Source of the DNA: Plumapathes pennacea
Lineage: Eukaryota; Cnidaria; Anthozoa; Antipatharia; Myriopathidae
DNA: 64,000 bases
Assembly (NCBI GenBank): GCA_964036295.1
Contig: OZ038469.1
Span: 7,270,067 to 7,334,066, forward strand
Direction: 5' to 3'
In this document: piece after piece, positions 24,142-59,707 of the stretch
How the letters are laid out: each line of letters opens with the position of its first letter
Numbering within the stretch: position 1 is the first letter of the stretch
Notes under the pieces: generated by a model
Databases searched by the model: none
The model's input: the letters and a program-made list of their open reading frames with translations, nothing else
What the model was told of the DNA's origin: nothing
Translations under genes and position numbers: made by a program

Positions 24142-24192
24142 TATATTCTTTCCTATCTTTTATCTCTATACGCTTTCTTTTACTACTTCATT

Positions 24193-27685: not shown

Positions 27686-27841
27686 TTTGCAGTCACGCTT
27701 GCGTGATTCGTTTCTAGTTAGTTTTTAATTGTTTTTGAGGACAGTCACCCCATGACTGCCCCGTTGCCGTAAACACGGTACTCTTAAGTACCTGCTAAAC
27801 AGCTCAAGTGCCGATAATTTGTGATCACTATTGATTTTTCC

Positions 27842-28854: not shown

Positions 28855-28873
28855 ATACTTACCTGACGCGGGA
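28855..28873 (+). ncRNA. U1 snRNA first 19 nt, left of T2
   Basis: ATACTTACCTGACGCGGGA preceded by the normal U1 upstream spacer (176 bp after U2). It holds the 5' splice-site recognition sequence. The gene body continues at 46658 after three LINEs. The last 17 nt form the target duplication. Confidence 0.95.
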
Positions 28874-29278
28874 CTATCGTTTTGGCGCGGGTTCAAGTCG
28901 CTGGAGTTACATCCAAGTTCATTCAAGCAAAGGATTTTGTAAGCCCTTCTTCTTTTTTCTTTTCTCTTTCCTTCTCTTGTTTGTTTTTTTGCGGCCACCC
29001 TCCTGGGGACTCCATGCTCAGTGCCTAGCACTGTAACCCAGGGTAACCGCTTTTCCTCTAATTTCTCGTATTCAACGCTCAACGGATTTATGCTCCGAAT
29101 ATTCGTAGCGGGAACCTCCATATTCCTGTAGAATATTCGGTAACGTTGACTTGAATACCTAGCTCGCTCGGGTTCTTCCGACGAGTCCTTCTTGCTTCCC
29201 GAAAGTCTTTCGGGATTTTTCGTCGCCAAGTTTGGCTCAATCGTCAGCGTTTTTCGCCATATTCTGCAATTTTGCAAA
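28874..29278 (+). promoter_or_regulatory. T2 5' UTR with conserved hairpins
   Basis: Contains the family block GCGGCCACCCTCCTGGGGAC, the small hairpin CAGTGC-CTA-GCACTG (29019-29033) and a perfect 10-bp stem CCGAATATTC (29095-29104) with GAATATTCGG (29131-29140), followed by TAAC. T3-T5 have different sequences at the same place that also pair. The region lies just downstream of a U1 promoter. Confidence 0.65.
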
Positions 29279-30571
29279 ATGGCGCTTCGACGTTTGCGTA
29301 CCCTTACGGCTCACGTACCTTCTCCACTCGGTATGGTTGACCGAAAGGTTTTTTTGGATGCTCTTCTAAAGAGCACACCTAAAGAAGCAGTAAAGTGTGT
29401 GCAAGACATGCACGGGTATTTTCGAGTCACTTTCATCTCGGAAGAGACAAAAGATCTCTTTGCTTCTAATGGTATGACGGTGAAAGGGGTTTCAATCCCT
29501 TTACAAGAGGCCGATGAGGCCACTCTAGTTCGTCTCTATGGGGTACCTTTCGAGGTTCCCGAAGGAAACATCCGAGCCGTCCTAGGAAAATTTGGAAATG
29601 TCCTCTCCCACCAAATGGAGATGGATAAGAAATCTGGGATCCTGACAGGGACGCGCTTGATACGGATCCGACTCACCCAGCCTATCCCAGATAGGCTTTA
29701 CGTCTTGAGATATAGGTTCCAAGTATGGTACTCGGGTCAACCGAAAATCTGCCGGGTATGCCAAGTCCAGGGTCATGTGGCCGCACGCTGCCCTAACAAG
29801 GGCCTATGCCGAGTCTGCCGCCAACCGGGACACACAGCAAAGAACTGTCCTGAGGCAAACACCCTTGTCAGCCAAAATCCCTGGCATACTCGCCTAAGGT
29901 CCAATGCTGCATCTACCAATGTTGCAGATTCTGAAAGGATTGCTGAGCCTCCCAATGTGGAGGCAGTAGCTGATCAGCCTGTTGATGAAGGCGCTACTGA
30001 AACAACACCAGAACCAAGTGCTGAAGTCGCAGAAACAGCTACTGAGGGTGGTGATAATGAAGTTGAAATAACTGATGTAGGGGATAGTCCGGAAGTTGTT
30101 AATCCTTCTGGAGCTGAATTGATTATCCCCGAGCTTGTGGCTGATGAGGGTGAGAGAGCTGGTGACTCCGTCAATGTTGAGTCTCCGCATGTTGACGCCG
30201 ATGCAGTAGAACATCGTGCCACTTACATGGAAGAAGTAATTGATGAAGGGGTTAGCCCGGAAGCTGTAAGCTGCTCTGGTGCTGAGTTGATTACTCCTGT
30301 TAATGAGGGCGAGAGTGTTGGTGACTCCCCCTCGTCCGAGTCTCCGCTTGTTGATGCCGATGGCTTTATTGTTGTAAGACATCGGGCCACTCGCATACGT
30401 GAAGCACGAGATCTAAAACTCAGAGCACAAGCTGCCTCTGAAATCTTTTCTCGTTCTCGCCCGTCACGCTCTTCGTCTTGTTCACGTGTCCAATTCAGTT
30501 CCTCGTGTCGCTCCCGTTCCAACTCTCCCGCTGCGAGAGAAAAAACTAAAAACTCTAATGGAGGGTCATAA
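29279..30571 (+). CDS. T2 ORF1 protein, two zinc knuckles and Arg/Ser-rich tail
   Basis: 430 aa from ATG 29279 (MALRRLRTLTAHVPSPLG). An in-frame upstream TTG at 29192 extends the frame but lies in the 5' UTR. The N-terminal 150 residues look like a compact RNA-binding fold (FRVTFISEE, VRLYGVPFEVPEGN). Two CX2CX4HX4C knuckles lie at residues 158-190 (CRVCQVQGHVAARC, CRVCRQPGHTAKNC). A long acidic region with internal repeats (SPEVV..SGAELIIPE, SPEAVSCSGAELITP) follows, then VDADGFIVVRHR and a Ser/Arg tail (SRSRPSRSSSCSR...). It likely coats element RNA; the tail could contact splicing factors (inference). Confidence 0.88.
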   Translation: MALRRLRTLTAHVPSPLGMVDRKVFLDALLKSTPKEAVKCVQDMHGYFRVTFISEETKDLFASNGMTVKGVSIPLQEADEATLVRLYGVPFEVPEGNIRAVLGKFGNVLSHQMEMDKKSGILTGTRLIRIRLTQPIPDRLYVLRYRFQVWYSGQPKICRVCQVQGHVAARCPNKGLCRVCRQPGHTAKNCPEANTLVSQNPWHTRLRSNAASTNVADSERIAEPPNVEAVADQPVDEGATETTPEPSAEVAETATEGGDNEVEITDVGDSPEVVNPSGAELIIPELVADEGERAGDSVNVESPHVDADAVEHRATYMEEVIDEGVSPEAVSCSGAELITPVNEGESVGDSPSSESPLVDADGFIVVRHRATRIREARDLKLRAQAASEIFSRSRPSRSSSCSRVQFSSSCRSRSNSPAAREKTKNSNGGS

Positions 30572-31002
30572 CTTTTTCATTACTATTACGTTTAAAACCT
30601 TAGTTCATGTACAATGGGCAATGTCCCATTTAAGAGTAAAGTGGGCAAACCCCCACTCAAAGTTCAGCCGGGTACAGTGGACAAAGTTCCACTTTGTATA
30701 TAAATTTATAACACAACGGATAATATCTCACTCAAATATAAAGTGGGCACATCCAAACATAAGGGTACAGTGGGCAAACCCCCACTTTAGGTATATACTA
30801 ATTCAGTGGGCAAACCCCCGCTCTAGGTATATATTAATTCAGTGGGCAATGACTCACTTCAAGTATAATTTAATGGTACAGTGGGCAAACCCCCACTTGG
30901 GATACATAATAGCGCAGGTGGAAAAGTTCCACTTTCAGTTTTATTTAAAAGTACTGCTCAATCTTGAACAGCGGGATATGTACTCCTCATACACTCTATA
31001 TC
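30572..31002 (+). repeat. T2 inter-ORF hairpin ladder
   Basis: About nine hairpins in 431 nt. AATGGG-CAATGT-CCCATT (30613-30630), AGTGGG-CAAACC-CCCACT (30640-30657), AGTGGA-CAAAGT-TCCACT (30676-30693), further AGTGGG/CCCACT copies to about 30900, and GTGGAA/TTCCAC near 30920. Paired changes such as GGG/CCC to GGA/TCC keep the stems. No gene is present. Confidence 0.85.
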
Positions 31003-34000
31003 ATGGCGTCGCTACTTTCTGTTAACATCAATGGTCTGAGAGACCCCACTAAAAGAGCGGCTTTTATACGCTGGTTAAGACAGTCTGATCCTGATCTGGT
31101 TTGTGTCCAAGAGACGCACTCCATCTCAGATGTTGAGATACGCTCATGGTTTTCTTCCTCGGGTTATCTCTTTTCTGCCTCTCATGGGTCAAGTAAATCA
31201 TCTGGCGTTTGCATTCTTCATAAATCTCCTTATAAATTAGTTGATGTAACAAGAGACGACTCTGGGCGTTTTCTTCTTTGTAGATTCGATTACGCTGGCA
31301 AGTTCTTTCAACTTGCCAACATTTATGCGCCAAATCGTAATCCTGCTCGCGATGACTTCTTCGAAGACATCTCGGCCTGCCTTGATGCTTCTACCCCAAT
31401 CATTCTAGCTGGGGACTTCAATGCTGTTTTTAATCCTGATGTTGACAGAAGAGGGGGCTCACCCTCCGCCTCTAGGGAGAGTACCACTACCCTCTCTGAC
31501 CTATTCGAGCTTTGTGGTTGCTCTGACATCTGGAGATACTTACACCCTCAATCAAGAAAGTTCTCCTGGACCAAATCAGACGGCTCGATTGCTTCCCGTG
31601 TTGACTTAATCGGTTGCCCGTTTGATTGGGTCCCAAGCGCTCAGTCTTGTGATTTCATTGTTTGCCCTTATTCAGATCATTGTGCCTCCCTTTTTACCTT
31701 TTGTCTTCCGGAATCCATGCCTCGGGGTCCGGGATATTGGAAACTGAATGCTTCTGTTCTTGAAGAATCTGACTATGTCGACTCTGTTACGTCCTTTTGG
31801 ATCCTCTGGCAGGGTAGAAAGTCCTCTTACTCGTCTTTACTTAACTGGTGGGACTCTGGCAAACTAAAAATCAAGAATCTCACACTAGACTACTGCAAAA
31901 GAAAGGCTGAGGTCTCAAAGCAAGATCGCTCTCGCCTTACTGACAAAGCCTCTGAGTACAAGTCCCAGATAGACGGGGGTAACCTATCAGTGTTGCCAGA
32001 TTACAAAAGCATACTGGAGTCTTTAAAATCTCTTGATGCTGAGGAAATAAAAGGAGCCCAAGTTCGCTCCCGCATTAAATGGGCCGAAGAAGGCGAGACC
32101 TCCTCCACTTTCTTTTGTCGGTTGGAGAAAAGACATGCTAACAACAGATGGTTTTCAGCTGTCCGCAACGTAGATGGCTCATATACTTCGGACTTATCCG
32201 GGATTATGAATGCCTGGTCCTCTTTTTATCGCGATCTATTTTCCGCGGCTCCAGTCATCCCGTCTGCTCAAGATGAGATGCTCGACAAATTAGAAACTCG
32301 CCTGTCCGATTCAGAAGCAGCTAGCTGTGAAGGCCTTCTCACGACGGCTGAAGTCATGGAAGCCTTAAAAGGCATGAGCCACAACAAATCCCCTGGTTTA
32401 GACGGCCTAACTCCCGAATTTTACCTAAAATTTTGGGCGTGTCTCGGCCAAGACCTTGTCGATGTCATCAACCATGGGTACGCCACTGGGTCTCTTACTC
32501 TATCTCAACGTAGAGGTCTCATCTCCCTCCTCTTTAAGAAGGGAGATCGTTTCGACATGGCTAATTGGAGACCAATCACCCTCCTGTGCTCTGATTATAA
32601 AATAGCTTCCCGATGTATTGCTGGTCGGTTACTCAAAGTGATCTCCTCCGTGGTTGCCCCTGACCAAACTTGCGGTGTGCCTGGACGGTACATAGGAGAG
32701 AATGTTGCATTACTCCGCGACGTTGTTTCCTTTGCTTCTGAAAACAATGTCCAGGTGGCTATCCTATCATTGGATCAGAAAAAAGCCTTTGACCGAGTTG
32801 ATTGGTCTTTCTTGTTTAAGACCCTGCGCGCGATGGGCTTCGGTCCGTCTTTCCTTGCCTGGGTTAAACTCTTTTACACTAACCCTCAAAGCGCCGTATT
32901 AGTAAACGGTTACACCTCCGATTTTTTTACCCTCACTCGCAGCGTCCGACAAGGTTGCCCTCTGTCTCCTCTCTTATACGTACTTGTTGCTGAAGTTCTA
33001 GCATGCAACATCCGTGCTGACACCCGTATCAAAGGGATCACTCTTCCCAGCCATCATAATGTCTCTGTCCTGTCCCAATATGCTGATGATACTTCAGTTA
33101 TTGTAGGGTCAGACGAATCCATCCTAGCCACTTTCGAAGTTTACGCTAAATATGAGGATGCTTCGGGCGCCAAACTCAACCTTGAAAAGTGTAAAGGGTT
33201 GTGGCTTGGCTCCTGGTTCGGCCGAACCACAAAGCCCGTCGATCTGGACTGGACCTCCGAAAAACTGAAAACTCTTGGGGTCTTCGTTGGTCCAGGTAAT
33301 CTGGACCACGCTAATTGGGATCCCCGTTTGGAGGCCATAGACAATGTCTTCAACTCCTGGCGCCAACGTGCACTTTCTTTGCAGGGCAAGACGGTGGTAA
33401 TCAACACCCTCGCCCTCTCCAAGTTGTGGTACGTTGCCTCCCTCATCTCTGTACCTTCCTGGGTGACCACCCATGTTAAACGATCCTTGTTTAATTTTTT
33501 CTGGAGTGGGAAGCGTGACCTAGTTGCCAGAAAGGTAGTCAACCTTCCCAAAACATTAGGAGGCTTTAACGTGGTTGATGTGGAGATGAAGATTGCTGGT
33601 CTACATGCCATGTGGATCAAGCGCTTTTTCTCGTCCTCTCACCATTGGCGGTCTTTCCTTCTCTATTGGATGCCCGACTTTGAGCAGTTTCTCCTCTCTC
33701 CAACTGTTGTCCCGGATTCTCTGCCATCCTTCTACCAAAGCGTCCTGTCCTCATGGATTGCCTTGGATGGTGGCTCCTTGCCCGGGTCGGTTTCTCCGTG
33801 CATTTCTTGCCATTCTGGGGACCAGTCGATCCCTCTTGCAAACTTATCTTCCAAGATTGGTTACTCGATCCTGCTAGAGCGTAACCCTCCACTCCCTAAC
33901 TGTGTTACGCACTTTCAACCACACTTTGGTGACCTGTACTGGTCTGGCACCTGGCCACAGGTACACTCCTTCCCTATGGATCGAGTTGTTCTAGACCTTG

Positions 34001-34503
34001 CCTGGAAGTCCGCTCATGGCGTTCTCTACACTGCACAACGCTTAATCTCTTTCGGCTATAATTACGACCCGAATTGCTTTTGCAAAGCCCCTCTAGAAAC
34101 ATTAGAGCATCTTTTTTTCTACTGTCCATTGGCGCAAAGCGGCATTGACTGGATACAGTACCAACTACTGTCTGCCGTTCCCGTTGCGCCAAACATCTTG
34201 TGCCGTCACGTTCTCTTTGGTTTCAATCCAGACGAACTCTTAGCTGTACCACCTGTATTCATATATTTGTTGCACTTATTGAAGTACTTTGTGTGGCTTG
34301 CCCGTAACGATTTTCGTTTCCGTAATGTATCTCCGTCGGCAGTTCACCTGGTACAGTCCATCAAGGCACGCCTGCAGTTCAATCTCAGCGTATTTTCCCG
34401 ACGATTTAAATCCATCGCTGCCAAGAGGCGTTTTGTTCGTCTGTGGGGGGGTCGTGGGCGATTTGCCAGCATTGCCAACGACTCCATTGTTGTTCATGTC
34501 TAA
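31003..34503 (+). CDS. T2 ORF2, APE endonuclease plus reverse transcriptase
   Basis: 1,166 aa, from ATG 31003 (MASLLSVNINGLRD), which aligns with the T1 and T4 starts; an upstream ATG-less extension begins at 30964. Endonuclease: NINGLRD near residue 10, QETH with catalytic Glu37, GDFNAV near 136, SDH at 224-226. Reverse transcriptase: NWRPITLLCSDYKI, DQKKAFDRVDW, RQGCPLSPLLYVL, catalytic YADD at 693-696. A C-terminal zinc finger starts at Cys1025 (CFCKAPLETLEHLFFYC). The enzyme nicks U1 DNA and copies the element RNA at the nick. All key residues are present and no stop or frameshift occurs. Confidence 0.95.
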   Translation: MASLLSVNINGLRDPTKRAAFIRWLRQSDPDLVCVQETHSISDVEIRSWFSSSGYLFSASHGSSKSSGVCILHKSPYKLVDVTRDDSGRFLLCRFDYAGKFFQLANIYAPNRNPARDDFFEDISACLDASTPIILAGDFNAVFNPDVDRRGGSPSASRESTTTLSDLFELCGCSDIWRYLHPQSRKFSWTKSDGSIASRVDLIGCPFDWVPSAQSCDFIVCPYSDHCASLFTFCLPESMPRGPGYWKLNASVLEESDYVDSVTSFWILWQGRKSSYSSLLNWWDSGKLKIKNLTLDYCKRKAEVSKQDRSRLTDKASEYKSQIDGGNLSVLPDYKSILESLKSLDAEEIKGAQVRSRIKWAEEGETSSTFFCRLEKRHANNRWFSAVRNVDGSYTSDLSGIMNAWSSFYRDLFSAAPVIPSAQDEMLDKLETRLSDSEAASCEGLLTTAEVMEALKGMSHNKSPGLDGLTPEFYLKFWACLGQDLVDVINHGYATGSLTLSQRRGLISLLFKKGDRFDMANWRPITLLCSDYKIASRCIAGRLLKVISSVVAPDQTCGVPGRYIGENVALLRDVVSFASENNVQVAILSLDQKKAFDRVDWSFLFKTLRAMGFGPSFLAWVKLFYTNPQSAVLVNGYTSDFFTLTRSVRQGCPLSPLLYVLVAEVLACNIRADTRIKGITLPSHHNVSVLSQYADDTSVIVGSDESILATFEVYAKYEDASGAKLNLEKCKGLWLGSWFGRTTKPVDLDWTSEKLKTLGVFVGPGNLDHANWDPRLEAIDNVFNSWRQRALSLQGKTVVINTLALSKLWYVASLISVPSWVTTHVKRSLFNFFWSGKRDLVARKVVNLPKTLGGFNVVDVEMKIAGLHAMWIKRFFSSSHHWRSFLLYWMPDFEQFLLSPTVVPDSLPSFYQSVLSSWIALDGGSLPGSVSPCISCHSGDQSIPLANLSSKIGYSILLERNPPLPNCVTHFQPHFGDLYWSGTWPQVHSFPMDRVVLDLAWKSAHGVLYTAQRLISFGYNYDPNCFCKAPLETLEHLFFYCPLAQSGIDWIQYQLLSAVPVAPNILCRHVLFGFNPDELLAVPPVFIYLLHLLKYFVWLARNDFRFRNVSPSAVHLVQSIKARLQFNLSVFSRRFKSIAAKRRFVRLWGGRGRFASIANDSIVVHV

Positions 34504-34728: not shown

Positions 34729-34745
34729 ACTTACCTGACGCGGGA
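34729..34745 (+). repeat. 17-bp U1-derived target duplication between T2 and T3
   Basis: ACTTACCTGACGCGGGA, identical to U1 nucleotides 3-19 at 28857-28873 and to the copy at 40830-40846. It is both the right flank of T2 and the left flank of T3. Confidence 0.95.
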
Positions 34746-35030: not shown

Positions 35031-36407
35031 ATGGCCTCCTTGCAAGCGCCATTCGCCGTTCCGCCCCCGGCGGTGCCAAGGCCAGCCACTGTGCTGGTCA
35101 CTTTACCTGAGGACCTTGTCCATGTTACCGATCGTAAGGAGTTTGTCTCCCGTTTAGCTGCAAAGTCCCAAATTGGGGACATTAGCTGCGTTCAATCAAT
35201 GCCAAATGGCGTATTTAGGGTTACTTGCAAAAGTAGAGACTCATACAACTGGCTTACAGTTAATGGGTTGTCAGTGCGCGGTCAGCAGTGCACAATAATG
35301 GAGGCTCAACCCTCCTTCACCTATGTACGTGTGTTTAACTGCCCATTCGAAGTCCCGGCAAAAGACATTGCCGAAGCTCTTGCCTTTTGGGGAAAAGTTC
35401 ATGAAGTCCGCCATGAGTATGATCGCGACTTTAAAACGCTGGCCACTGGGACCCGATCAGTCAAGATGAAGTTGACTGGTGCTATCCCTACGAGATTGTA
35501 CATCAAGCGGTATCCATGCAATATTTGGTACCGTGGCCAGCCAAAAGTTTGCAGGATATGTCGTGATGAAGACCACGAGGCCCCTCACTGCCCTCTGAAA
35601 GGCAAGTGTCTCCGTTGCCGCCAGGAGGGCCATGTGTCCAGAAACTGCAACAATGCTTGGGGTACAGTGGTGAATGCCAACGTTCCCCAGAATAATGAAG
35701 ACCTTCCTCAGGAGGAAAATGTCCAGCCCCAAAACATCGACGGGGCTCCAGTTGCTGTAGAGGACACCCAGCCCGAGGACCACGATGCCCCTCCCCAGGT
35801 GGAAAACCCTCAGCCAGTAGCCACTGTAGTTCCACCCCCGGTGGAAACCGCTCAGCCTGTGATCACCGAGGCTCCTGTCCAGCTAGAAAACACCGGAGCT
35901 GCTTCTCCAAATGCGGATTTCAACACTGAGTCCGAAAGTGATCTCGCCCTTCTCGCTGTTGATCTTGGTATAACCTTGAACCAGGTCCCCGATCCTCCAG
36001 CAGGAGAAATCGAGGCGACAACCGGTGCTGAAAGTCAGGAAATGGAGACCGAACAGTCTGCTCCATCTTCCTCTGCATCCCCTAGTTTGTTTAAGACACC
36101 AGAGGCCCCAGAGCCATCGTCAACATCTGCGAGTACCTCTGCATCCCCCGGGTCTTCTACCTCTAAGGCCAGCACACCTATACTGGATGACGATGGTTTT
36201 ATTCTCGTTAACCGCTCCAGACGGAAATCTGCGAAAGAGCGAGCAGTGGAATCCTGGCCAAATAACCACTCTCGCTCTCGCTCTCGCTCACGCCCTCGCT
36301 CCAGCTCTGTTCCTTCCATGGATGACGGTGGTCGCTCCCGCTCGAGATCACCCCCAAAGAAAGATTTTCGTGCCTCCAGAAAGGCAAAGCAAAGACCCAC
36401 CTCATAA
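35031..36407 (+). CDS. T3 ORF1 protein, two zinc knuckles and long Arg/Ser-rich tail
   Basis: 458 aa. The N-terminal part (LVTLPEDLVHVTDRKEFVSR, FNCPFEVPAKDI) matches T4. Two CX2CX4HX4C knuckles at residues 174-206 (CRICRDEDHEAPHC, CLRCRQEGHVSRNC). A Pro/Val/Glu repeat region follows (PQVENPQPVATVVPPPVETA), then LDDDGFILVNRSR and a marked RS domain (HSRSRSRSRPRSSS, GGRSRSRSPP). It likely binds element RNA. RS domains of this kind are used by SR proteins to contact U1-70K in the U1 snRNP; a link to the U1 target is only an inference. Confidence 0.9.
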   Translation: MASLQAPFAVPPPAVPRPATVLVTLPEDLVHVTDRKEFVSRLAAKSQIGDISCVQSMPNGVFRVTCKSRDSYNWLTVNGLSVRGQQCTIMEAQPSFTYVRVFNCPFEVPAKDIAEALAFWGKVHEVRHEYDRDFKTLATGTRSVKMKLTGAIPTRLYIKRYPCNIWYRGQPKVCRICRDEDHEAPHCPLKGKCLRCRQEGHVSRNCNNAWGTVVNANVPQNNEDLPQEENVQPQNIDGAPVAVEDTQPEDHDAPPQVENPQPVATVVPPPVETAQPVITEAPVQLENTGAASPNADFNTESESDLALLAVDLGITLNQVPDPPAGEIEATTGAESQEMETEQSAPSSSASPSLFKTPEAPEPSSTSASTSASPGSSTSKASTPILDDDGFILVNRSRRKSAKERAVESWPNNHSRSRSRSRPRSSSVPSMDDGGRSRSRSPPKKDFRASRKAKQRPTS

Positions 36408-37017
36408 ATGGCGGGCTTTCACTTTTTCTGGGCTTGCCCCCTCTCACTCTGGTTTACCTTCGTTTTGAAGGTCTTACCTTTAGCTTATCTTTATTTTTGG
36501 GTACAGTGGGCGAACCCCCACTCTCATTTTAAGGCAAAGCCTTACCATAATATAGTGCTAATTAAAATTCCAACTTATTATGTGGGCAAACGCCCACTTG
36601 GTATCAGTGAGCAAACCCTCACTACGGTGTTGTGGGCAAACCCCCACTATAAGATAAAGCGGGTACAGTGGGCAAACCCCCACTCTTACTTTAAGAAACT
36701 GTGGGCAAAGTCTCATCATAATATAGTGTCAATTAAAATTTCTACTTGTATTGTGGGCAAACCCCCACTTGGGTTCAGTGAGCAAACCCTCACTATGGTA
36801 TTGTGGGCAAACCCCCACTATAAAATAAAGCGTCTAGGTATATTACAGCATAATGTGTTTTTTAGTTTGTGGAGAAAGAGGTGCATAGCCTCCTCCACTG
36901 GTTTACTTCGTTTCCTATCTTGTGGAAGAAGAGACCGAAAGTCTCATCCACTGGCTTATTTACTTTATTGTAACTATTTATTTAATCCGGGATTGTGTTA
37001 CTTTTCACTTAAACTCA
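36408..37017 (+). repeat. T3 inter-ORF hairpin ladder
   Basis: At least nine hairpins, mostly GTGGG-CAAACC-CCCAC, plus AGTGAG-CAAACC-CTCACT at 36606-36623 and again near 36776. Two larger two-step hairpins lie next to ORF2: GTGGAG/CTCCAC with inner GAGG/CCTC (36869-36898), and GTGGA/TCCAC with inner GAGAC-CGAAA-GTCTC (36922-36951). Frames running through are not genes. Confidence 0.85.
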
Positions 37018-40000
37018 ATGACGCACTTAATTATATCCATTAATGTTAATGGTCTCCGCGAAATAAATAAGCGGATGTCTTTCTTTCATTGGATTCAGCA
37101 ACTAAATGCTGATGTTGTCTGCCTACAAGAAGTCCACATTGACTCGGCTGAGGTCAGAGCCTGGTTTTCTTCTTCTGGCTTTGAGGTGGTAGTCTCCCCT
37201 GGCACCCACAGATCTTGTGGGGTCGCCACTCTTTATCGCCCGTCTCTTTCCTTGATCAATTCGTGGAAAGATGACTGTGGTCGTTTTGCCATGCTCGAGC
37301 TGAGTGGGGCTGGTGGTACTTTCAGGGTGGCTAACTGTTATGCCCCCAATCGAAATCCCGCCAGGAATCTTTTCTTCGATGCCCTATCCTCTGTCCTTGA
37401 CCCTTCTATTCCTACAATTATCTGTGGCGATTTCAATACCGTGCTTGATCCCTCACTAGATCGCCGTTCGTCCTCCCTCCCTTCGTCCTACAGGGAGAGC
37501 ACGAAGATCCTTAAAAGACTTTTTGCTGATATGGGAGTTGTGGATGTCTGGCGCCATTTTCACCCTGGTGTCTCTGCATTTACGTGGACTAAGCCTGATG
37601 GGTCTTGTGCTTCACGCATTGACCTTATTGGGCATCCGCAGGCCTGGCTCTCTTCTGTGTCTAACTCCGATATAATTTCTTGCCCCTATTCTGACCATGA
37701 CGCCATCTCTTTATCTTTTGCCATTCCTGAAAGTTTCCCCCGTGGTCCTGGTTTTTGGAAGTTGAACACCTCCATCCTTGATGACCCTGCGTATGTTAAC
37801 TTAATTTCTTCTTTTTGGGCTTCTTGGAAAGATGAACGCTCTTCCTACCATTCCCTCCAATCCTGGTGGGATATGGGAAAATTCAAAATCAAGAACTTGA
37901 CTGTTCGCTTCTGCTCTTCGCGCTCAAAAGCGAAAAAATCTCTTCGTTCTGACTTAACTGCCAGAGCTGCTGCTCTCAAGGTTCTGCTTGACAGTGGCTC
38001 TGTTTCAATCTTAGATGACTACAAGGATGTGCTGGCTCAACTAGCAGCCTTGGACCTTGAGGAAGCAAAGGGTGCCCAGGTCCGTTCTAGGGCTCGTTGG
38101 TGTGAGGAAGGTGAGACTTCCTCAGCCTACTTCCTTCGTATGGAGAAAAGGCATGGCCGTGACAATTGGATTTCCAGCATCCGTTCGCCAGACGGATCCA
38201 TTGTCTCGGATCTGCCTGGGCTCTTGTCTGGTTGGTCTGGTTTTTATCAGAAACTTTTCACCTCAGAGATCATCGATGAGGCTGTCCAGGATGAATTCCT
38301 GGCAAATCTTGAGTCCACTCTGGACAAGGGGGACGCAGACTTGTGCGAAGGCGACCTCACTTGTGAGGAAGCCTTCACCGCCTTGCAGGGTATGGCCCAT
38401 CACAAATGCCCTGGATACGATGGCCTCTCCATGGAGTTTTACGTTCGGTTTTGGAATGTTTTGGGTCCTGACTTGGTATCAGTCCTCAATAGGGCTCACC
38501 GGGCGGGCTGCATGTCTCTTTCCCAGAGAAGGGGTGTAATAACCCTATTGTACAAGAAAGGGGACCGCCTAGACATGACCAATTGGCGGCCAATCACCCT
38601 ACTTAATGTCGACTACAAAATCGCAGCTAGATCCATTGCCGGTCGACTTCTCAAAGTTATCGGCAAAGTGGTGTCCCCGGACCAAACCTGTGGTATTCCG
38701 GGCCGTTTTATTGGTGAAAACGTCCGCCTCCTCGCTGACGCGATTGCTTACGCCAATGAACATAATTTACCTCTCGCTGTTTTGTCTTTGGATCAGGAGA
38801 AAGCCTTCGATCGTGTTGAATGGTCTTTTCTCCTGGCCACCCTTAAGAGAATGGGTTTTGGGCCTTCTTTTATTAACTGGATTAAGCTCTTTTATACCGG
38901 AACTCAGAGTGGTATCCATCTCAATGGGTACATCTCTGATTTTTTTCCCCTTTCGCGTGGGGTTCGTCAGGGATGTCCTTTGTCTCCTTTACTCTATGTT
39001 CTTGTCGTTGAAACTTTAGCCACCAACATTCGTGCCTCTCCCGTCATCCAGGGTCTGGACCTCCCTGGAGTGGTCAGGCCTTGCATCACCTCTCAGTATG
39101 CCGACGACACCTCTCTCCTACTTTGTACGGATGAATCCATTCTTGAGGTTTTTAAGATTTACCGAAAGTTTGAAATGGCATCTGGGGCCAAGCTAAACCC
39201 CACCAAATCTAAAGGCTTGTGGGCTGGTTCGTGGAAGGGCAGGACCGATCCTCCTGTCCATCTTAAATGGTCGTCTGAGTGTCTCCACACCCTTGGAGTC
39301 TATCTTGGCAACACGAGCCTTGACGAGGATAATTGGAGGCCTCGTATCACGTCGTTTGAAAATGTGCTCGCCTCTTGGAGACAGAGGTCCCTCTCCTACC
39401 AAGGGAAGGCCCTCGTTGCTAATGCTCTCGCCCTCTCCGGTCTCTGGTACGTCGCCTCAGTGATGACCATGCCGGAGTGGGCCCTTTCTGAAATCAATAA
39501 GTCCTTGTTTGCTTTCTTCTGGAGTGGAAAGCGGGACCTTGTATCCCGAAACGTTGTGTGCCAGCCTCGTCTTTCTGGTGGCTTTGACCTGGTAAACGTG
39601 GCAGCCAAGATCCAAGCCCTCCATGTACAATGGGTCCGTCGCCATCTTACGTGCCCCAGTAAGTGGGCTGCTGCTCTGTCCGCTCGTATCTGGGAAGCTT
39701 CTAATGCCTCTTTGAATGATGTTTTGTCTCACCCTGCATTGTATGACCTCGGCGAGTTACCCTCTTTTTACAAATCGGTAATCTCGTCTTGGGAGGCTCT
39801 TGATGGGTGCTTCTCTGCATCCAAAAATGTTTTCGTCTGGGGTCCAGCTCAGGTCCTCGCTACCGAGCTTACCTGCAAACTCGGCTACCAATGCATTGTG
39901 CAGAAGAACGCTAAGCCGGCACATTGCATTGGTAAATTTTTTCCTGATTTCGGACACCTGTATTGGCCTGAAACATGGTCACAGGTGTCCCTTTGTCCAC

Positions 40001-40527
40001 TTGATCGCCAAGTGATTGACCTCAATTGGAAGGTCGCTCATGGGGTGCTGTACACCGCCTCCAGGCTAGCTTCCTTTGGCTACGCCATTGACACTGCTTG
40101 TTTCTGTGGTGCTCCTGATGAGACTCTTTCCCATCTGTTCTTTTACTGCCCACTGGCCCAAAGTGCTATTGCCTGGGTCCAGAGTCTTCTTTTCAACGCT
40201 TGCCCTGCCCCGCCATCTCTTGCTCTCCGCCACCTTCTTTTCGGCTTCAGCCCGGACGAGCTTTTAGCTGTCCCTCCTGTTTTTTCGTATCTGCTCAATG
40301 TCTGCAAATATCAGGTGTGGTTGGCCCGGAATGATTTCCGATTTCGTAACATCCGGCCGGGGGCAATTGAGGTCATAGCCGCTGCGAGGAGCAGGTTGAA
40401 ATTCATCCTTCCCCTGTTCTTCAAGCGCTTCAAGTCTTCGAAACGCCGCCGTTTCTTCAGCCGTGCTTGGGGTGCCAATGACACCATTGCTCGGGTGGAT
40501 GGCACCTCCTTAGTTTTTCTTCTTTGA
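37018..40527 (+). CDS. T3 ORF2, APE endonuclease plus reverse transcriptase
   Basis: 1,169 aa from ATG 37018 (MTHLIISINVNGLRE); an in-frame ATG at 36922 lies in the hairpin region and is an unlikely start. Endonuclease motifs: NVNGLRE, LQEVHI (His of QETH kept), CGDFNTVLDPSLDRR, YSDHDAIS. Reverse transcriptase: NWRPITLLNVDYKIA, LDQEKAFDRVEW, RGVRQGCPLSPLLYVL, YADD at residues 694-697. C-terminal finger CFCGAPDETLSHLFFYC. Uninterrupted, with all catalytic residues, hence a candidate active enzyme with U1 gene specificity. Confidence 0.95.
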   Translation: MTHLIISINVNGLREINKRMSFFHWIQQLNADVVCLQEVHIDSAEVRAWFSSSGFEVVVSPGTHRSCGVATLYRPSLSLINSWKDDCGRFAMLELSGAGGTFRVANCYAPNRNPARNLFFDALSSVLDPSIPTIICGDFNTVLDPSLDRRSSSLPSSYRESTKILKRLFADMGVVDVWRHFHPGVSAFTWTKPDGSCASRIDLIGHPQAWLSSVSNSDIISCPYSDHDAISLSFAIPESFPRGPGFWKLNTSILDDPAYVNLISSFWASWKDERSSYHSLQSWWDMGKFKIKNLTVRFCSSRSKAKKSLRSDLTARAAALKVLLDSGSVSILDDYKDVLAQLAALDLEEAKGAQVRSRARWCEEGETSSAYFLRMEKRHGRDNWISSIRSPDGSIVSDLPGLLSGWSGFYQKLFTSEIIDEAVQDEFLANLESTLDKGDADLCEGDLTCEEAFTALQGMAHHKCPGYDGLSMEFYVRFWNVLGPDLVSVLNRAHRAGCMSLSQRRGVITLLYKKGDRLDMTNWRPITLLNVDYKIAARSIAGRLLKVIGKVVSPDQTCGIPGRFIGENVRLLADAIAYANEHNLPLAVLSLDQEKAFDRVEWSFLLATLKRMGFGPSFINWIKLFYTGTQSGIHLNGYISDFFPLSRGVRQGCPLSPLLYVLVVETLATNIRASPVIQGLDLPGVVRPCITSQYADDTSLLLCTDESILEVFKIYRKFEMASGAKLNPTKSKGLWAGSWKGRTDPPVHLKWSSECLHTLGVYLGNTSLDEDNWRPRITSFENVLASWRQRSLSYQGKALVANALALSGLWYVASVMTMPEWALSEINKSLFAFFWSGKRDLVSRNVVCQPRLSGGFDLVNVAAKIQALHVQWVRRHLTCPSKWAAALSARIWEASNASLNDVLSHPALYDLGELPSFYKSVISSWEALDGCFSASKNVFVWGPAQVLATELTCKLGYQCIVQKNAKPAHCIGKFFPDFGHLYWPETWSQVSLCPLDRQVIDLNWKVAHGVLYTASRLASFGYAIDTACFCGAPDETLSHLFFYCPLAQSAIAWVQSLLFNACPAPPSLALRHLLFGFSPDELLAVPPVFSYLLNVCKYQVWLARNDFRFRNIRPGAIEVIAAARSRLKFILPLFFKRFKSSKRRRFFSRAWGANDTIARVDGTSLVFLL

Positions 40528-40829: not shown

Positions 40830-40846
40830 ACTTACCTGACGCGGGA
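40830..40846 (+). repeat. 17-bp U1-derived target duplication between T3 and T4
   Basis: ACTTACCTGACGCGGGA again, exact. It serves as right flank of T3 and left flank of T4. Confidence 0.95.
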
Positions 40847-41147
40847 CTATCGTTTTGGCGCGGGTTCAAGTCGCTGGAGTTGCATCCAAGTTCATTCAAG
40901 CAAAGGATTTGTAAGCCCTTCTTCTTTTTCTTTTTTCTTTCCTTCTCTTGTTTGTTCTTTTGCGGCCACCCTCCTGGGGACTCCATGCTCAGTGCCTAGC
41001 ACTGTAACCCAGGGTAACCGCTTTTCCTTTACTCGTTCCGACCCTTCGGTGGATGTATGCTCAGCGGTAGTCTTTGCCTCTGGTTAAGCTACCGCTGTAA
41101 CACCGAGTAAGGAACTTTTTTCGCTCTGTTCAGCCTCTTTGCTGATC
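40847..41147 (+). promoter_or_regulatory. T4 5' UTR with conserved hairpins
   Basis: Carries the shared GCGGCCACC block and CAGTGC-CTA-GCACTG. The long stem is a perfect 9 bp, CAGCGGTAG (41062-41070) with CTACCGCTG (41089-41097), then TAACACCGAGTAAGGAAC. The ORF1 ATG is taken at 41148. Confidence 0.6.
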
Positions 41148-42341
41148 ATGGCCTCTGCAGATGTGCAAGCCCCAGCCGCGTTAGTCATCTCTTTACCGGC
41201 TGATTTGGTCAACGTAGTTGACAGACGTGAATTTATCTCTCGTTTACGGGAAAAATCAGTCCTGAACGAAATAAAATGCGTTCAGACTCTCAGCAACGGG
41301 AGTTTCCGTGTTAATTGTAAGACCGCTGGGTCATACACCTACCTTACTTGTAATGGGCTTTCGATTCACAGCCGCCAGTGCACTGTGGTCGAAGCCCAGC
41401 CTTCCTTCACCTTCGTTCGTCTATTCCGCTGTCCTTATGAAGTTCCCGAAGAGGCTATTCGCCTCGCTCTATCTGCCTATGGGAAGATCGGGGAGATCAG
41501 ACATGAAGTTGACCCCGACTTCAAAAGCATTGTGACTGGTACTCGCATTATTAAAATGCAACTGTCTTCTCCGATCCCTTCGAGGATCCTTATTAAACGC
41601 TTTCCCTGCAACGTGTGGTATCGTGGACAACCTAAAACGTGCAGGATTTGTCATTCCAAAGACCATGAGGCCCCGGCGTGCTTTCTTAAAGGTCGATGCC
41701 GGCGGTGTCATGAGGAGGGCCACATGGCCAAAGATTGTCGCAATGCGTGGCAACAGCGACGTGAGGAACGCGAGCGTCAGGACGCAAACCCGGACACTTC
41801 TGAGTCTGCCCATAATCCCGCTCCCTTCGAGCTTGTTTTGGAGGAAACACCAGCTGCAGAAGCCTCCCTGGAGGTCACAGACCCCGCAGCTGTCATAGAT
41901 CCTCCGGCTAATCTTGAGCCACCAGTTACTGAGGCTACTGACGAGGCCCAGACCTCCGAGATCATTGGTGCTGATCCTCCGGCCACTGAACACTCCAACA
42001 CAGCTCCGCCGGATATTACCTTGAACCCTGAAGAGTCCCATTCAGCCGCTGTATCTGACCATGAGATGGAGGTCCAACGGGATTCCCCCACTGACCCGGA
42101 AGCCTCCAACACCCCATCTCCAATCCTTGATGACGATGGCTTTGTCCTGGTTCAATCAAGGCATTCCAAGCGCTCTGCAGGGCGCAAGAGAAAGTCATCC
42201 ATTGAACGTTCTGGAAGAATGCCTTCCACTGAGAATCGTGATCGTTCTCGTTCCCGATCGCGATCACGCCTTCGCAATGGTCCCTCCTCCCCAACCCCGG
42301 GATGGAGTGGTTCTACGTCATCTAGTCAGTCAAATGGCTGA
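41148..42341 (+). CDS. T4 ORF1 protein, two zinc knuckles and Arg/Ser-rich tail
   Basis: 397 aa from ATG 41148 (MASADVQAPAALVISLP), aligned with the T3 start; an in-frame codon at 41139 adds three residues. N-terminal domain as in T3 (LVNVVDRREFISRLREKS, FRCPYEVPEEAI). Knuckles at residues 165-197 (CRICHSKDHEAPAC, CRRCHEEGHMAKDC). An acidic, Ala/Glu/Pro-rich middle, then LDDDGFVLVQSRHSKRS and a tail with RDRSRSRSRSRLR. Same role expected as T2 and T3 ORF1. Confidence 0.9.
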   Translation: MASADVQAPAALVISLPADLVNVVDRREFISRLREKSVLNEIKCVQTLSNGSFRVNCKTAGSYTYLTCNGLSIHSRQCTVVEAQPSFTFVRLFRCPYEVPEEAIRLALSAYGKIGEIRHEVDPDFKSIVTGTRIIKMQLSSPIPSRILIKRFPCNVWYRGQPKTCRICHSKDHEAPACFLKGRCRRCHEEGHMAKDCRNAWQQRREERERQDANPDTSESAHNPAPFELVLEETPAAEASLEVTDPAAVIDPPANLEPPVTEATDEAQTSEIIGADPPATEHSNTAPPDITLNPEESHSAAVSDHEMEVQRDSPTDPEASNTPSPILDDDGFVLVQSRHSKRSAGRKRKSSIERSGRMPSTENRDRSRSRSRSRLRNGPSSPTPGWSGSTSSSQSNG

Positions 42342-42839
42342 GTTTCTTATTTTTGGGTCTCACCTTCAGGTGTACCCCTCACTCTTTATTGCTTACTTAG
42401 TTTTCTTTATATCCTTAACTAAATGGCCTAAAAAAGGCCCGGTTTTTTGGCCTGCGGGCCTAACACTTAGTTGGTTTCTTTTAGTGTCCACAAAGGACCT
42501 TAATGGGCTCTCTAAGAGCCAGGGTATAATCATTTGGCCCAAAAAAGGCCCGGTATTCTGGTTTACGTCCGCAAAGGACATAATTTGGCTCCCAAAGAGC
42601 CAGAATATAACTAAATGCCCTAAAGTGGGCTTGGTTAGCGGTTTAGTTAACTGGCCTAAAAATGGCCCTGACCCTTTTTGGCTCCCTAAGAGCCAAGGTC
42701 CAAGTAAATGGCCCAAAAAAGGCCCGGTTATCTGGTCCCCAAATAGCGTTATAGATAAATGTAACTATAGGCTCCTTAAGAACCTAGCTTTTTGGCCTTC
42801 AACTGGCCTGGCTCTTTCAGTACAGCTCACATTATCATA
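42342..42839 (+). repeat. T4 inter-ORF hairpin ladder, GGCC/GGCTC type
   Basis: About twelve hairpins with stems unlike those of T1-T3: GGCC-TAAAAAA-GGCC, GTCC-ACAAA-GGAC (42486-42498), GGCTC-TCTAA-GAGCC (42506-42520), GGCTC-CCAAA-GAGCC, GCCC-TAAAGT-GGGC, TTGGCTC-CCTAA-GAGCCAA. Loops are A-rich as in the other copies. The architecture is kept while the primary sequence is replaced. Confidence 0.85.
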
Positions 42840-45800
42840 ATGGCTGTGTTACTTTTATCTGTAAACACTAATGGCTTGAGGGACATAAACAAACGTATGT
42901 CCTTCCTGCACTGGCTAAACCTTTGCAAGCCCGACATCATTTGCCTGCAGGAATTGCACATAAAGGACGAGGCGGAGGCCAGAATGTGGTTCTCCTCTTC
43001 TGGCTATTCCTTCGCTTCCTCTCCCGGGACACTTAAGTCCCGGAGCGTTGCAATTCTATTCCGTCCTTCCATGTCCATCACTAAGATCTTCAAAAACAAC
43101 TCCGGTCGCTTTGTTATGGCAGAATTCCAGTCCCCGAAGGGTAACTTTAGAGTGGCAAACATTTATGCGCCCAATCGTAACCCTGATCGGAACTCTTTTC
43201 TTGATGAAATCTCTGGTCTGCTTGATCCGTCCTTCCCTACTTTCCTTTGTGGAGACTTCAACTGTGTCATGGACCCATCGTTAGATCGACGTGGGTCCAA
43301 CTCTTTGCCATCTTCCTATAGAGAAAGCTGTGTACAACTGAAACGTCTCTTTGACGATGCAGGTGTCTCAGACATCTGGAGACTCAAAAATCCATCTGGA
43401 AGAACCTTTACTTGGACAAGCCCTGATGGGTCTAAAGCGTCCCGCATTGACATGATCGGTTGTCCGGAAACCTGGACCCCCAATGTCACCTCCACCGACA
43501 TTGTGGTGTGCCCATACTCGGACCATGATGCCGTCACGACTACTTTCTCAGTACCCGAAACAATACCTCAGGGTTCAGGTTACTGGAAATTTAACATTTC
43601 CATCCTTGACGAGCCTGATTATAAGGACCTCGTATCCTCATTCTGGGACAGCTGGCAAAAGCTAAAAGCCTCGTACCCCACTCTTAATTCGTGGTGGGAT
43701 GTGGGAAAATTCAAACTCAAGAGTCTAACGATTCGTTATTGTACCAGGAGACTCCGGGCACAAAAATCAGCCCGTTTAGAACTTACTAGAGAAGCCGACC
43801 TTCTCAAAGCGCAAGTTGACGCTGGGCACACATCGGCCCTCGACTCCTATAAGGACGCTACTGCGAAAATTGCTGCCCTAGACCTTGAGGAGGCAAGAGG
43901 AGCTCAAACTCGCTCTCGTGCCCGTTGGTGCGAGGAAGGCGAATCCTCTTCCTCTTATTTCTTCCGGCTTGAAAAGAAACGTCAGAAAGAGAGCCACATC
44001 TCTGGTATCCGCTTGCCAGACAAGTCGGTAGTCTCTGATCTGCCAGGACTCCTTCATGGCTGGTCGGCCTTTTACAAGTCACTTTTCTCTTCCATTGATA
44101 CAGACCTTGTGGCACAAGAAGATCTACTTGCAAACGTTGAGTCTACACTCAACAAAGAAGACTCCGAACTATGTGAAGGGCCCCTTTCCTTGGAAGAAGC
44201 CCACTGTGCGCTTAGTGGTATGGCTCGCCGGAAAGCGCCAGGCCTCGATGGCTTTCCCATGGAATTTTATCTTTCTTTCTGGCATCTACTTGGTTCTGAC
44301 CTCGTCGATGTCTTGAACCGTGCACACTTCTCGGGCACGCTCTCCACGTCGCAAAGACGTGGCCTCATCACTCTCGTTTTTAAGAAGGGTGATCGCCTCA
44401 ATATGGCGAACTGGCGCCCTATTACACTTCTAAATGTAGATTACAAGATCGCTGCCAGGTCCATCGCTGGCAGGCTCCTCAAAGTCATCGATCGTGTAGT
44501 CTCTCCCGACCAGACATGCGGTGTCCCCGGGCGCTACATTGGAGAGAATGTCCGTCTCCTCCAGGACGCGGTGGCGTATGCAAACGAGCAGGATCTCCCG
44601 CTCGCCATTCTCTCTCTTGATCAAGAGAAAGCTTTCGACAGAGTTGAGTGGTCCTTCCTGTATAACACCCTCAACAGGATGGGGTTTGGCCCCTCCTTTG
44701 TCAGTTGGATAAGGACCTTTTACACTGGCCCACAAAGTTCCGTTAATGTTAACGGCCACCTTTCCAACTTCTTCTCCCTTTCCAGGGGAGTACGCCAGGG
44801 GTGTCCCCTCTCCCCCTTGTTATATGTCCTCGTCGCGGAGGTCCTAGCCTGTAACATCCGGGCCTGCCCTTCCATCACGGGCCTGTCCATCCCTGGGGCC
44901 GCCGAACCATACCTGTTATCTCAGTACGCGGACGATACGTCACTGCTGCTGACCTCCGATAATGCGATTCGTGATGTCTTTAAAGTATACGATAAGTATG
45001 AGCGTGCTTCAGGAGCGAAACTCAATCAGTCCAAGACCAAAGGTCTTTGGGCAGGCTCCTGGCGTGGTCGCCTTGACCCCCCTGTGGACCTCAACTGGTC
45101 CTCAGGCAAGCTGTACAACCTTGGGGTTTTCGTCGGTAACGACGACGTCGAACAGGACAATTGGCTCCCCCGCCTTGAGTCCTTCTCTAACGTCTTAAAC
45201 TCTTGGCGCCAAAGATCGTTATCTTTTCAGGGCAAAGCCCTAGTCTCTAATGCGCTGGCGCTCTCCGGCCTTTGGTATGTGGCCTCCCTACTTCCGATGC
45301 CGGAGAGCGTCCTCAAAGATGTAAACAAAGCTCTCTTCTCCTTTTTCTGGAGTGGGAAGAAGGAGCTGGTCTCCCGCAATGTAGTCTGCCAGCCCCGCGA
45401 GTCGGGTGGATTCGGAGTTGTCGATGTTGGGGCCAAGGTCCGGGCTCTACATGCCCAGTGGATCAAGCGGTACCTGTCATCTCCCGCCAAGTGGGCTAGT
45501 TATTTAAACTGGTGTGTCTCTTCGACATTCCATGTACCCCTGCGCGACGTCCTGGACAAGCCTGATACTTTTTGCTTTGATTCTTTACGCCCATTTTACA
45601 ATTCTGTTCTCTCTTCCTGGAGACCCCTATCAGGCGGTTTCTCACTTCCATCCATACACACCATGACCACCAAACTTTCCTATACCTTCCTGGTCTCTAT
45701 GGCATCTAAGCCACCGCACTGTGTTGCAAAGTTTGTCCCTACTTTTGGTCCTCTGTATTGGCCACAGACGTGGCGGCAGGTCTCGATCTGCCCTCTTGAC

Positions 45801-46322
45801 CGCCACGTTGTCGACCTAAATTGGAAGATTGCCCATGGTGTCCTTTACACGGCTGATAGACTCGCTTCTTTCGGCTACTCCATTGATACCACCTGTTTCT
45901 GTGGTTATCCTTTGGAGTCGCTGACCCACCTGTTCTTCGAATGCCCTTTAGCCCAGAGTGTCATTGCCTGGGTCCAAACTCTGCTGTGTACTTGCTCGCC
46001 TGACGCTCCGTCGCTCACGGTTCGTCACCTCCTTTTCGGCTTTAACCCTGATGAAATCCGTTCTGTCCCCTCTGGTTTTTCTTACTTACTAAACGTCTGT
46101 AAATGGAGGATTTGGCTTGCCCGAAACGACTTCCGGTTCCGCAAAACACCACCTGGAGCCGTCGAGGTCGTCTCGGAAGTCAAGTACCGTCTGAAGTTCA
46201 TCCTGCCACTCTTCTTTAAGCGTTTTGTTTCCGCTAGACGCAAACGCCTCTTTGCGTCCCAATGGGGTGCCTCTGGCATTATTGCCAAGATCTCCGGCTC
46301 CGATCTCAGGATCGTCCTGTAA
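42840..46322 (+). CDS. T4 ORF2, APE endonuclease plus reverse transcriptase
   Basis: 1,160 aa from ATG 42840 (MAVLLLSVNTNGLRD); an in-frame upstream ATG at 42792 lies in the hairpin region. Endonuclease: NTNGLRD, LQELHI, CGDFNCVMDPSLDRR, YSDHDAVT. Reverse transcriptase: NWRPITLLNVDYKIA, LDQEKAFDRVEW, RGVRQGCPLSPLLYVL, YADD at residues 696-699. C-terminal finger CFCGYPLESLTHLFFEC. No stop or frameshift. The enzyme is expected to nick the U1 gene and prime reverse transcription there. Confidence 0.95.
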   Translation: MAVLLLSVNTNGLRDINKRMSFLHWLNLCKPDIICLQELHIKDEAEARMWFSSSGYSFASSPGTLKSRSVAILFRPSMSITKIFKNNSGRFVMAEFQSPKGNFRVANIYAPNRNPDRNSFLDEISGLLDPSFPTFLCGDFNCVMDPSLDRRGSNSLPSSYRESCVQLKRLFDDAGVSDIWRLKNPSGRTFTWTSPDGSKASRIDMIGCPETWTPNVTSTDIVVCPYSDHDAVTTTFSVPETIPQGSGYWKFNISILDEPDYKDLVSSFWDSWQKLKASYPTLNSWWDVGKFKLKSLTIRYCTRRLRAQKSARLELTREADLLKAQVDAGHTSALDSYKDATAKIAALDLEEARGAQTRSRARWCEEGESSSSYFFRLEKKRQKESHISGIRLPDKSVVSDLPGLLHGWSAFYKSLFSSIDTDLVAQEDLLANVESTLNKEDSELCEGPLSLEEAHCALSGMARRKAPGLDGFPMEFYLSFWHLLGSDLVDVLNRAHFSGTLSTSQRRGLITLVFKKGDRLNMANWRPITLLNVDYKIAARSIAGRLLKVIDRVVSPDQTCGVPGRYIGENVRLLQDAVAYANEQDLPLAILSLDQEKAFDRVEWSFLYNTLNRMGFGPSFVSWIRTFYTGPQSSVNVNGHLSNFFSLSRGVRQGCPLSPLLYVLVAEVLACNIRACPSITGLSIPGAAEPYLLSQYADDTSLLLTSDNAIRDVFKVYDKYERASGAKLNQSKTKGLWAGSWRGRLDPPVDLNWSSGKLYNLGVFVGNDDVEQDNWLPRLESFSNVLNSWRQRSLSFQGKALVSNALALSGLWYVASLLPMPESVLKDVNKALFSFFWSGKKELVSRNVVCQPRESGGFGVVDVGAKVRALHAQWIKRYLSSPAKWASYLNWCVSSTFHVPLRDVLDKPDTFCFDSLRPFYNSVLSSWRPLSGGFSLPSIHTMTTKLSYTFLVSMASKPPHCVAKFVPTFGPLYWPQTWRQVSICPLDRHVVDLNWKIAHGVLYTADRLASFGYSIDTTCFCGYPLESLTHLFFECPLAQSVIAWVQTLLCTCSPDAPSLTVRHLLFGFNPDEIRSVPSGFSYLLNVCKWRIWLARNDFRFRKTPPGAVEVVSEVKYRLKFILPLFFKRFVSARRKRLFASQWGASGIIAKISGSDLRIVL

Positions 46323-59705: not shown

Positions 59706-59707
59706 CA

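Follow-up and report, generated by a model that had tools for sequence, protein, structure and literature searches.

In the silkworm LINE SART1, ORF1 and ORF2 are coupled through UAAUG, in which stop and start codons overlap, and a structured RNA element follows the stop-restart site (PMC5972666). The same paper describes the TURBS of caliciviruses and influenza B, where stop and start codons are close or overlap and the RNA ahead of the second start is structured. It also gives UAAUG and AUG-Nx-UGA (x = 2, 5, 8 or 14) as the usual forms of a termination-reinitiation site, mentions some cellular mRNAs in which the start precedes the stop by more than 14 nt, and puts the inter-ORF spacer of human LINE-1 at 63 nt. 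With respect to target sites, the available part of PMC4640811 places target-specific LINEs with an apurinic-type endonuclease in the clades Tx1 and R1. Fixed sites in multicopy snRNA genes are given there for the U2-gene LINEs Keno (which has such an endonuclease) and Utopia and for the U1-gene DNA transposon Dada-U1, and in that part no inter-ORF ladder of hairpins is described for any of the three.

We analysed a window of 64,000 nt from Plumapathes pennacea (contig OZ038469.1, positions 7,270,067 to 7,334,066 of the forward strand), which is part of contig 8 (C8) of a genome examined as 290 Mb in 24 contigs. Here a group of LINEs, the T elements, carries a ladder of short hairpins in the linker between ORF1 and ORF2. 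Like SART1 and the TURBS-bearing RNAs, T elements have overlapping or closely spaced stop and start codons. Unlike SART1, with its direct ORF1-ORF2 coupling, the T elements have a third frame of 118-211 codons (ORFX) in which the hairpins are contained. Unlike TURBS, their structure consists of many small hairpins across ~350-600 nt, and inspection by eye of the 60-80 nt that precede the ORF2 ATG in T30, T36 and T42 did not reveal the TURBS core UGGGA. Like Keno, Utopia and Dada-U1, they insert into multicopy snRNA genes at one constant site; unlike Keno and Utopia, they target U1, where 17 bp at the 5' end are duplicated. They share the domain order of ORF2 with human LINE-1, whose ORF2p is the best PDB match of T30 ORF2 (T30 alone was compared). 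We know of no third frame in the inter-ORF spacer of human LINE-1.

T elements and their insertion site in U1

U1, U2 and 5S genes are all present in the window. A regular U1 gene array is found at C8:6837016-6895002 (at least 42 matches scored, from 4458 first-look candidates), with a unit of ~1.37 kb and an orientation flip near 6.879 Mb, and the U1 start sequence is repeated across C8 7.07-7.33 Mb. Many LINEs are interspersed with U1 genes, and every protein match in the 264 kb searched first lies on the + strand (223/223). T elements are preceded by the 17 nt ACTTACCTGACGCGGGA, which recur behind the A-rich tail that closes the element; around T30 this 17-nt target-site duplication is present on both sides, the A-rich tail preceding the 3' copy. 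Since the 17-nt flank is the start of the U1 gene, T elements insert at one site, the 5' end of U1. Endonuclease matches of at least 49% identity, among the 96 matches listed for the genome, all lie in C8:7.08-7.38 Mb, save for two fragments, one on C11 (75%) and the other at C8:6.199 Mb (54%), both of which adjoin a piece of 47-48% identity.

A second insertion site is seen in two U1 copies, at C8:7167169 and C8:7175228, that are broken after GTGATCAT, at about nt 30 of U1, by what are apparently other LINEs. Another kind of repeat has four copies in the window (1015-5120, 24191-28270, 48338-52246 and 58720-63759), with reverse transcriptase frames in both copies scanned; a U2 gene follows closely downstream of two of the four, and this repeat is possibly U2-targeting.

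ORF1 and ORF2 are both open in T30, T36 and T42, and ORF2 of all three encodes endonuclease, reverse transcriptase and zf-RVT domains (Pfam PF03372, PF00078 and PF13966). Judged by the ORF2 domains, the target-site duplication and the A-rich 3' end, T elements are LINEs with an apurinic-type endonuclease and candidate members of the Tx1 clade. ORF2 is open over at least 1180 residues in eight copies (five near-identical T30 copies, T36, T42 and T7153), and is broken in T7184 and T7204 (open frames of 512 and 299 at the match). A T copy at C8:7325847, in which the endonuclease begins at residue 127, was left out of the linker analyses. Relatives of ORF2 were not found as DNA in viral contigs. 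A LINE ORF2 piece of 30% identity in a bacterial gill-symbiont assembly is probably contaminating DNA of the mussel host; 820 nt around its ORF2 start were translated, and many stops follow the first 88 codons of one frame.

Because their start lies within U1, T elements transcribed from the U1 promoter would carry at the RNA 5' end the U1 stretch that base-pairs with 5' splice sites. The ORF1 proteins of T30, T36, T42 and T7184 end in RS-rich tails, the final 80 residues containing 9-16 RS/SR dipeptides (30329-30568 in T30, 36165-36404 in T36, 42099-42338 in T42); the longest open stretch before ORF2 has 1 such dipeptide in each of four distant LINEs. We take these tails to recall splicing factors, in elements that target U1 genes. 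Coordinates are collected in Table 1.

Table 1. Positions in the window of the T elements, their reading frames, their hairpins and the neighbouring U1 sequences
Feature	Position	Strand	Remarks
Ladder of T78	7877..8361	+	damaged copy; CATGGG stems; 2-9 stops per frame
17-nt U1 target-site copy	28857..28873	+	5' end of T30
ORF1 of T30	29192..30571	+	open from at least 29192; zinc knuckle; RS-rich C-terminus
ORFX of T30	30558..31025	+	155 codons; holds ladder
Hairpin AATGGG-caatgt-CCCATT	30613..30630	+	T30
Hairpin AGTGGG-caaacc-CCCACT	30640..30657	+	T30
Hairpin AGTGGA-caaagt-TCCACT	30676..30693	+	T30
Hairpin AGTGGG-caaacc-CCCACT	30769..30786	+	T30
Hairpin AGTGGG-caaacc-CCCGCT	30805..30822	+	T30; one U-G pair
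Hairpin AGTGGG-caatga-CTCACT	30841..30858	+	T30; one G-U pair
Hairpin AGTGGG-caaacc-CCCACT	30880..30897	+	T30
Hairpin GTGGAA-aag-TTCCAC	30918..30932	+	T30
ORF2 of T30	31003..34503	+	endonuclease, reverse transcriptase, zf-RVT
17-nt U1 target-site copy	34729..34745	+	between T30 and T36
ORF1 of T36	35031..36407	+	
ORFX of T36	36408..37043	+	211 codons; ladder in three codon phases
ORF2 of T36	37018..40527	+	
17-nt U1 target-site copy	40830..40846	+	between T36 and T42
ORF1 of T42	41139..42341	+	open from at least 41139
ORFX of T42	42334..42840	+	168 codons
ORF2 of T42	42840..46322	+	
U1 snRNA gene	46656..46819	+	directly 3' of the A-rich end of T42
Ladder of T537	53711..54356	+	damaged copy; endonuclease region missing; 4-11 stops per frame

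Composition and excess of the hairpins

The sequence-only reading had described about 9-12 hairpins in each of five inter-ORF gaps, with loops that are usually CAAACC or rich in A and with stems that change in pairs. Short hairpins are indeed found in all five stretches (7877-8361, 30572-31002, 36408-37017, 42342-42839 and 53711-54356), although their number is 7-10; the loops are as described, and the named stem changes are present. The last stretch is no genuine inter-ORF gap, as its copy is without the endonuclease region and the ladder runs into ORF2 near residue 626. Units of an 18-nt array type (stem of 6 bp, loop of 6 nt, 4 or more of the 6 positions paired) number 7 at 30572-31002, 9 at 36408-37017, 7 at 7877-8361 and 9 at 53711-54356. 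The T42 ladder is of a different type, with GGCC, GGCTC and GTCC stems and mostly A-rich loops; its 10 hairpins compare with 3.7 in synonymous permutations and were matched in 0/300. A third kind of ladder, with GCCC/GGGC stems, is found in T7372, which has 3 hairpins and no perfect stem of at least 6 bp in its last 234 nt; T7268 has 2 such stems. Overall, ladder stems are mostly of 5-8 bp with loops. A block of ~162-171 nt is tandemly duplicated in T36, stems of T7268 and T30 include G-U pairs, and T42 has a C-A mismatch where the near-identical T7153 pairs C-G.

The linkers at 30572, 36408, 42342, 7877 and 53711 contain 5, 5, 3, 4 and 5 perfect 6-bp stems of loop length 5-7, versus means of 0.40-0.63 and maxima of 2, 2, 3, 3 and 4 in 200 dinucleotide shuffles of the same five linkers. 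The excess drops to about twofold (10-15 versus 4.9-6.9) if one non-Watson-Crick pair is permitted. Over the 304 kb examined, 450-nt intervals with at least 300 nt inside linkers show 4.46 perfect stems of at least 6 bp (n=28), versus 1.10 in those without linker (n=1940, top 5). Ten sites preceding ORF2 in LINEs that are more distant (~30-37% ORF2 identity, about five families, some copies near-identical) contain 0-3 perfect 6-bp stems, with none in seven of the ten; the two richest sites (2 and 3) reach the level of T7268, and inspection of this upstream DNA by eye revealed no ladder. Six ORF2 segments of T30, T36 and T42 contain 0-2 such stems.

To compare the two arms, 47 CAAACC-type units from six linkers were chosen solely by the 5' arm and the first three loop letters; 24 of them form perfect 6-bp stems, and 32 are paired when G-U is permitted. 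Among 26 distinct arm pairs, 9 are perfect, versus a mean of 1.74 after shuffling of the 3' arms; the value of 9 was reached in 1/20000 shuffles, which is not a clean probability because the units are related. The ladder units are related by duplication, and hence their counts are not independent either. The outer pair is A-T, C-G or T-A, the second A-T or G-C, and the two inner ones G-C or A-T, in addition to G-U pairs and a few mismatches. G-U pairs outnumber A-C pairs 10 to 5 among distinct units, an excess that favours RNA but is confounded, because a TGG codon cannot go from G to A without creating a stop. Linker folding energies have z values that run from -2.4 to -4.9 for the + strand and from -3.6 to -5.6 for the - strand (window mean, -1.27), so that whole-linker folding energy is a weak signal, similar on both strands.

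The core 14-mer TGGGCAAACCCCCA has 37 matches in the genome. All 36 forward matches lie in T linkers (35 in mapped linkers and one at 7376052), and the single reverse match is on C6. A mobile palindrome was ruled out because the core is confined to T linkers, and a satellite or microsatellite because the units vary in a paired fashion and the spacers vary.

An open frame across the linker

Stops and frame changes had been taken to exclude coding in the linker, and this did not hold. Thirteen linkers were tested for stops in their forward frames. Each of the eight intact-ORF2 copies has one linker frame free of stops, with 6-18 stops in either of the other two; in T7184 and T7204, where ORF2 is broken, one frame likewise has 0 and the others 5-12. 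The partial linkers of T7372 and T7376 are open over 100 and 48 codons. Damaged linkers have stops even in their best frame: at least 1 in T7268 (first 380 nt), 2 in T78 and 4 in T537. Any open frame appears in 9 (T30), 0 (T36), 0 (T42) and 87 (T7184) of 20000 dinucleotide shuffles, and in 1, 11, 107 and 184 of 20000, respectively, when the spacers alone are shuffled and the hairpins are fixed.

ORFX begins on or beside the ORF1 stop, as ATG-8 nt-TAA (T30), TAAATG (T36 and T7184) or ATG-2 nt-TGA (T42). The first letter of its stop codon lies 20 nt (T30) or 23 nt (T36) past the A of the ORF2 ATG, or the stop and this ATG merge into TAATG (T42 and T7184). Offsets of the downstream ATG relative to the upstream stop are thus -11 and -20 (T30), +3 and -23 (T36), -5 and +2 (T42), and +3 and +2 (T7184). 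Overlapping or adjacent stop and start codons are therefore present at both junctions in all four elements measured, the second overlap of T30 and T36 being long (20-23 nt). The junctions include UAAUG and AUG-N2-UGA, two of the coupled termination-reinitiation forms listed in PMC5972666.

The relation of stems to peptide was addressed by recoding, in which the peptide is fixed and codons are permuted among synonymous sites (300 permutations). The observed count of perfect stems of at least 6 bp was reached in 1 (T30), 0 (T36), 1 (T7184) and 7 (T42) of 300, and in 0, 0, 0 and 1, respectively, of 300 recodings that follow ORF2 codon usage. T7268 shows no excess over synonymous permutation (232/300), and T7372 exceeds it weakly (MFE, 8/300; hairpins, 18/300). 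Thus, long stems exceed synonymous recodings in four of six linkers; the other two do not, or barely. The outcome varies with the measure, be it stem length, G-U pairing or folding energy. With stems of at least 5 bp, an excess is present in T36 and T7184 (0/300 each) and absent in T30 (46/300) and T42 (193/300); with G-U permitted, it is present in T30 (2/300) and T7184 (16/300) and absent in T36 (82), T42 (50) and T7268 (74). The observed folding energy was reached by 0 permutations of 300 for T36, T7184 and T42, 56 for T30 and 107 for T7268.

The peptide itself is weakly constrained. pN/pS of ORFX is 0.77 for T36-T7184, 0.61 for T30-T7268, 0.84 for T7184-T7376 (48 codons) and 0.46 between the two T36 repeats (53 codons), compared with 0.25 in ORF1 and 0.28-0.30 in ORF2; other frames of the same alignments are sometimes lower, and hence the ratio alone does not mark the frame. 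In T30 and T7268, all 14 hairpins (7/7 in each) are in one codon phase. In T36, phase 0 is used five times and phases 1 and 2 twice each; in T7184, phases 0 and 1 are used twice each and phase 2 once.

Relatives were compared pair by pair, with units chosen for forming hairpins in only one of the two sequences. Stems differ at 4/72 positions (T30/T7268), 0/48 (T36 repeats) and 3/24 (T7184/T7376), 7/144 in sum; loops at 3/36, 2/24 and 0/12, 5/72 in sum; and spacers at 47/204, 18/90 and 16/112, 81/406 in sum. Stems and loops thus differ less than spacers in two of the three comparisons, T7184/T7376 being without stem conservation. Two of the three stem differences of that pair are a G-C to A-T double change in one hairpin, with both amino acids changed; this paired change could be a conversion from a neighbouring AGTGAG unit of the array. 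The proposal that structure is kept and sequence is not thus stands between subfamilies and fails among relatives, where stem and loop letters, summed over the three pairs, differ less often than spacer letters. On the strength of the recoding, pN/pS, codon-phase and divergence results, the hairpins are maintained and so is the open frame, the peptide only loosely.

What the linker may do for ORF2

We tentatively favour, short of calling it probable, a reading in which the linker is an overlapping third frame written as a row of hairpins, relaying ribosomes from ORF1 to ORF2. As the layout in this one genome suggests, ribosomes that end ORF1 would restart at the ORFX ATG on or beside the ORF1 stop and then cross the hairpins while translating ORFX. 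Translation of ORFX would end on or just inside the ORF2 start, where a fraction of the ribosomes may restart and make ORF2p; in T30 and T36, where the ORFX stop lies 20-23 nt past the ORF2 ATG, a restart needs backward movement. The hairpins would be retained as RNA structure, most likely slowing or holding ribosomes and thereby setting a small dose of ORF2p. The frame would have to remain open for ribosome passage, the peptide itself being of little importance. A more specific form of this relay is possible, although we regard it as rather doubtful: the selected product would be the hairpin row together with the ribosome traffic, A-loop hairpins that melt and then refold after the passage of each ribosome would meter ORF2p and may, while translation proceeds, gather the element's own RNA-binding protein and so give cis-preference, and stems, phase and peptide would be free to drift provided that hairpins and open frame endure.

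The relay retains part of what the sequence-only reading had proposed. Its selected RNA module survives as a LINE-specific structure that goes beyond the needs of the protein in most tested linkers, while its non-coding aspect fails on the open frame. A role in ORF2 initiation suits the location, but it must operate with ribosomes translating through the hairpins. The results speak neither for nor against the other two suggestions of that reading, ORF1p loading and cis-preference.

The first alternative, which we consider unlikely, is that ORFX is a working small protein with a hydrophobic N-terminus and tandem repeats such as QWANPHF, possibly a membrane or RNA-binding accessory, and that the hairpins are mostly a by-product of coding. 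The best 19-residue Kyte-Doolittle means at the N-terminus are 1.64 (T36), 2.14 (T7184) and 1.73 (T42), and T7184 has a second hydrophobic window at its C-terminus (2.18), but the windows of T30 are weak (0.88). The single phase of the T30 and T7268 hairpins yields the same peptide repeat, whereas a single hairpin type of T36 and T7184 encodes WANPH, VGKPP or EQTLT. The large internal gaps of 39 and 48 nt (T30/T7268) and 9 nt (T36 repeats) are multiples of three, in a tally that leaves out 7 and 1 nt at the alignment ends; the T36/T7184 linker alignment, however, which is poor, has others of 13 and 20 nt. Likewise, the low ratio of the T36 repeats fits a protein, but those of the other comparisons are higher, and the excess of long stems over synonymous permutation in four of six linkers speaks against a mere by-product. 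Protein searches found no relatives of ORFX with T36 (63 candidates shared words) or T30 (3 candidates), and comparison with Pfam gave no family above the cut-off, sub-threshold matches being disregarded. The predicted structure of T36 ORFX has a mean pLDDT of 35.5 and is uninformative apart from a predicted N-terminal helix with block means of 52-64. Given the hydrophobic N-terminus in three elements, together with the lack of any relative found, a protein role stays a serious rival to the relay.

The main neutral rival is palindrome-making driven by reverse transcription, and we find it quite improbable. According to this, the ladder is a mutational product, in which short palindromes multiply by duplication, stay perfect because the template is switched in the course of reverse transcription or replication, and have no selected role. 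Fast turnover of units, their variation by subfamily, the tandem block of T36 and the equal folding of both strands are all in its favour. Nevertheless, the 14-mer core is confined to T linkers in 36 of 37 matches, all 36 in one orientation, the six ORF2 segments of the same elements are poor in stems, and the open frames persist.

An untranslated RNA module, either IRES-like or a loading platform for ORF1p, with an open frame by coincidence, is very improbable. A-rich loops on variable stems do resemble repeated protein-binding sites; but one frame is free of stops in every intact-ORF2 copy, an open frame arose in at most 184 of 20000 spacer shuffles of the four open linkers, and the frame overlaps or abuts ORF1 and ORF2 at both ends. 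As the ladder lies inside an open frame tied to both genes, a purely untranslated module is unlikely. Lastly, that the palindromes function as DNA cruciforms within the snRNA gene cluster is barely credible: the strands are equally palindromic, but the stems are short and looped, the core is restricted to one element region and one orientation, and G-U pairs occur in T7268 and T30.

In the open-licence literature searched, no LINE is named as targeting U1, and U1 snRNA genes would join the known LINE targets. The question on which this system bears is by what route, and at what dose, ORF2 is translated from two-gene LINE RNAs. Since several subfamilies keep an open frame and a hairpin row despite changes in stems and codon phase, frame, peptide and structure are separable in tests.
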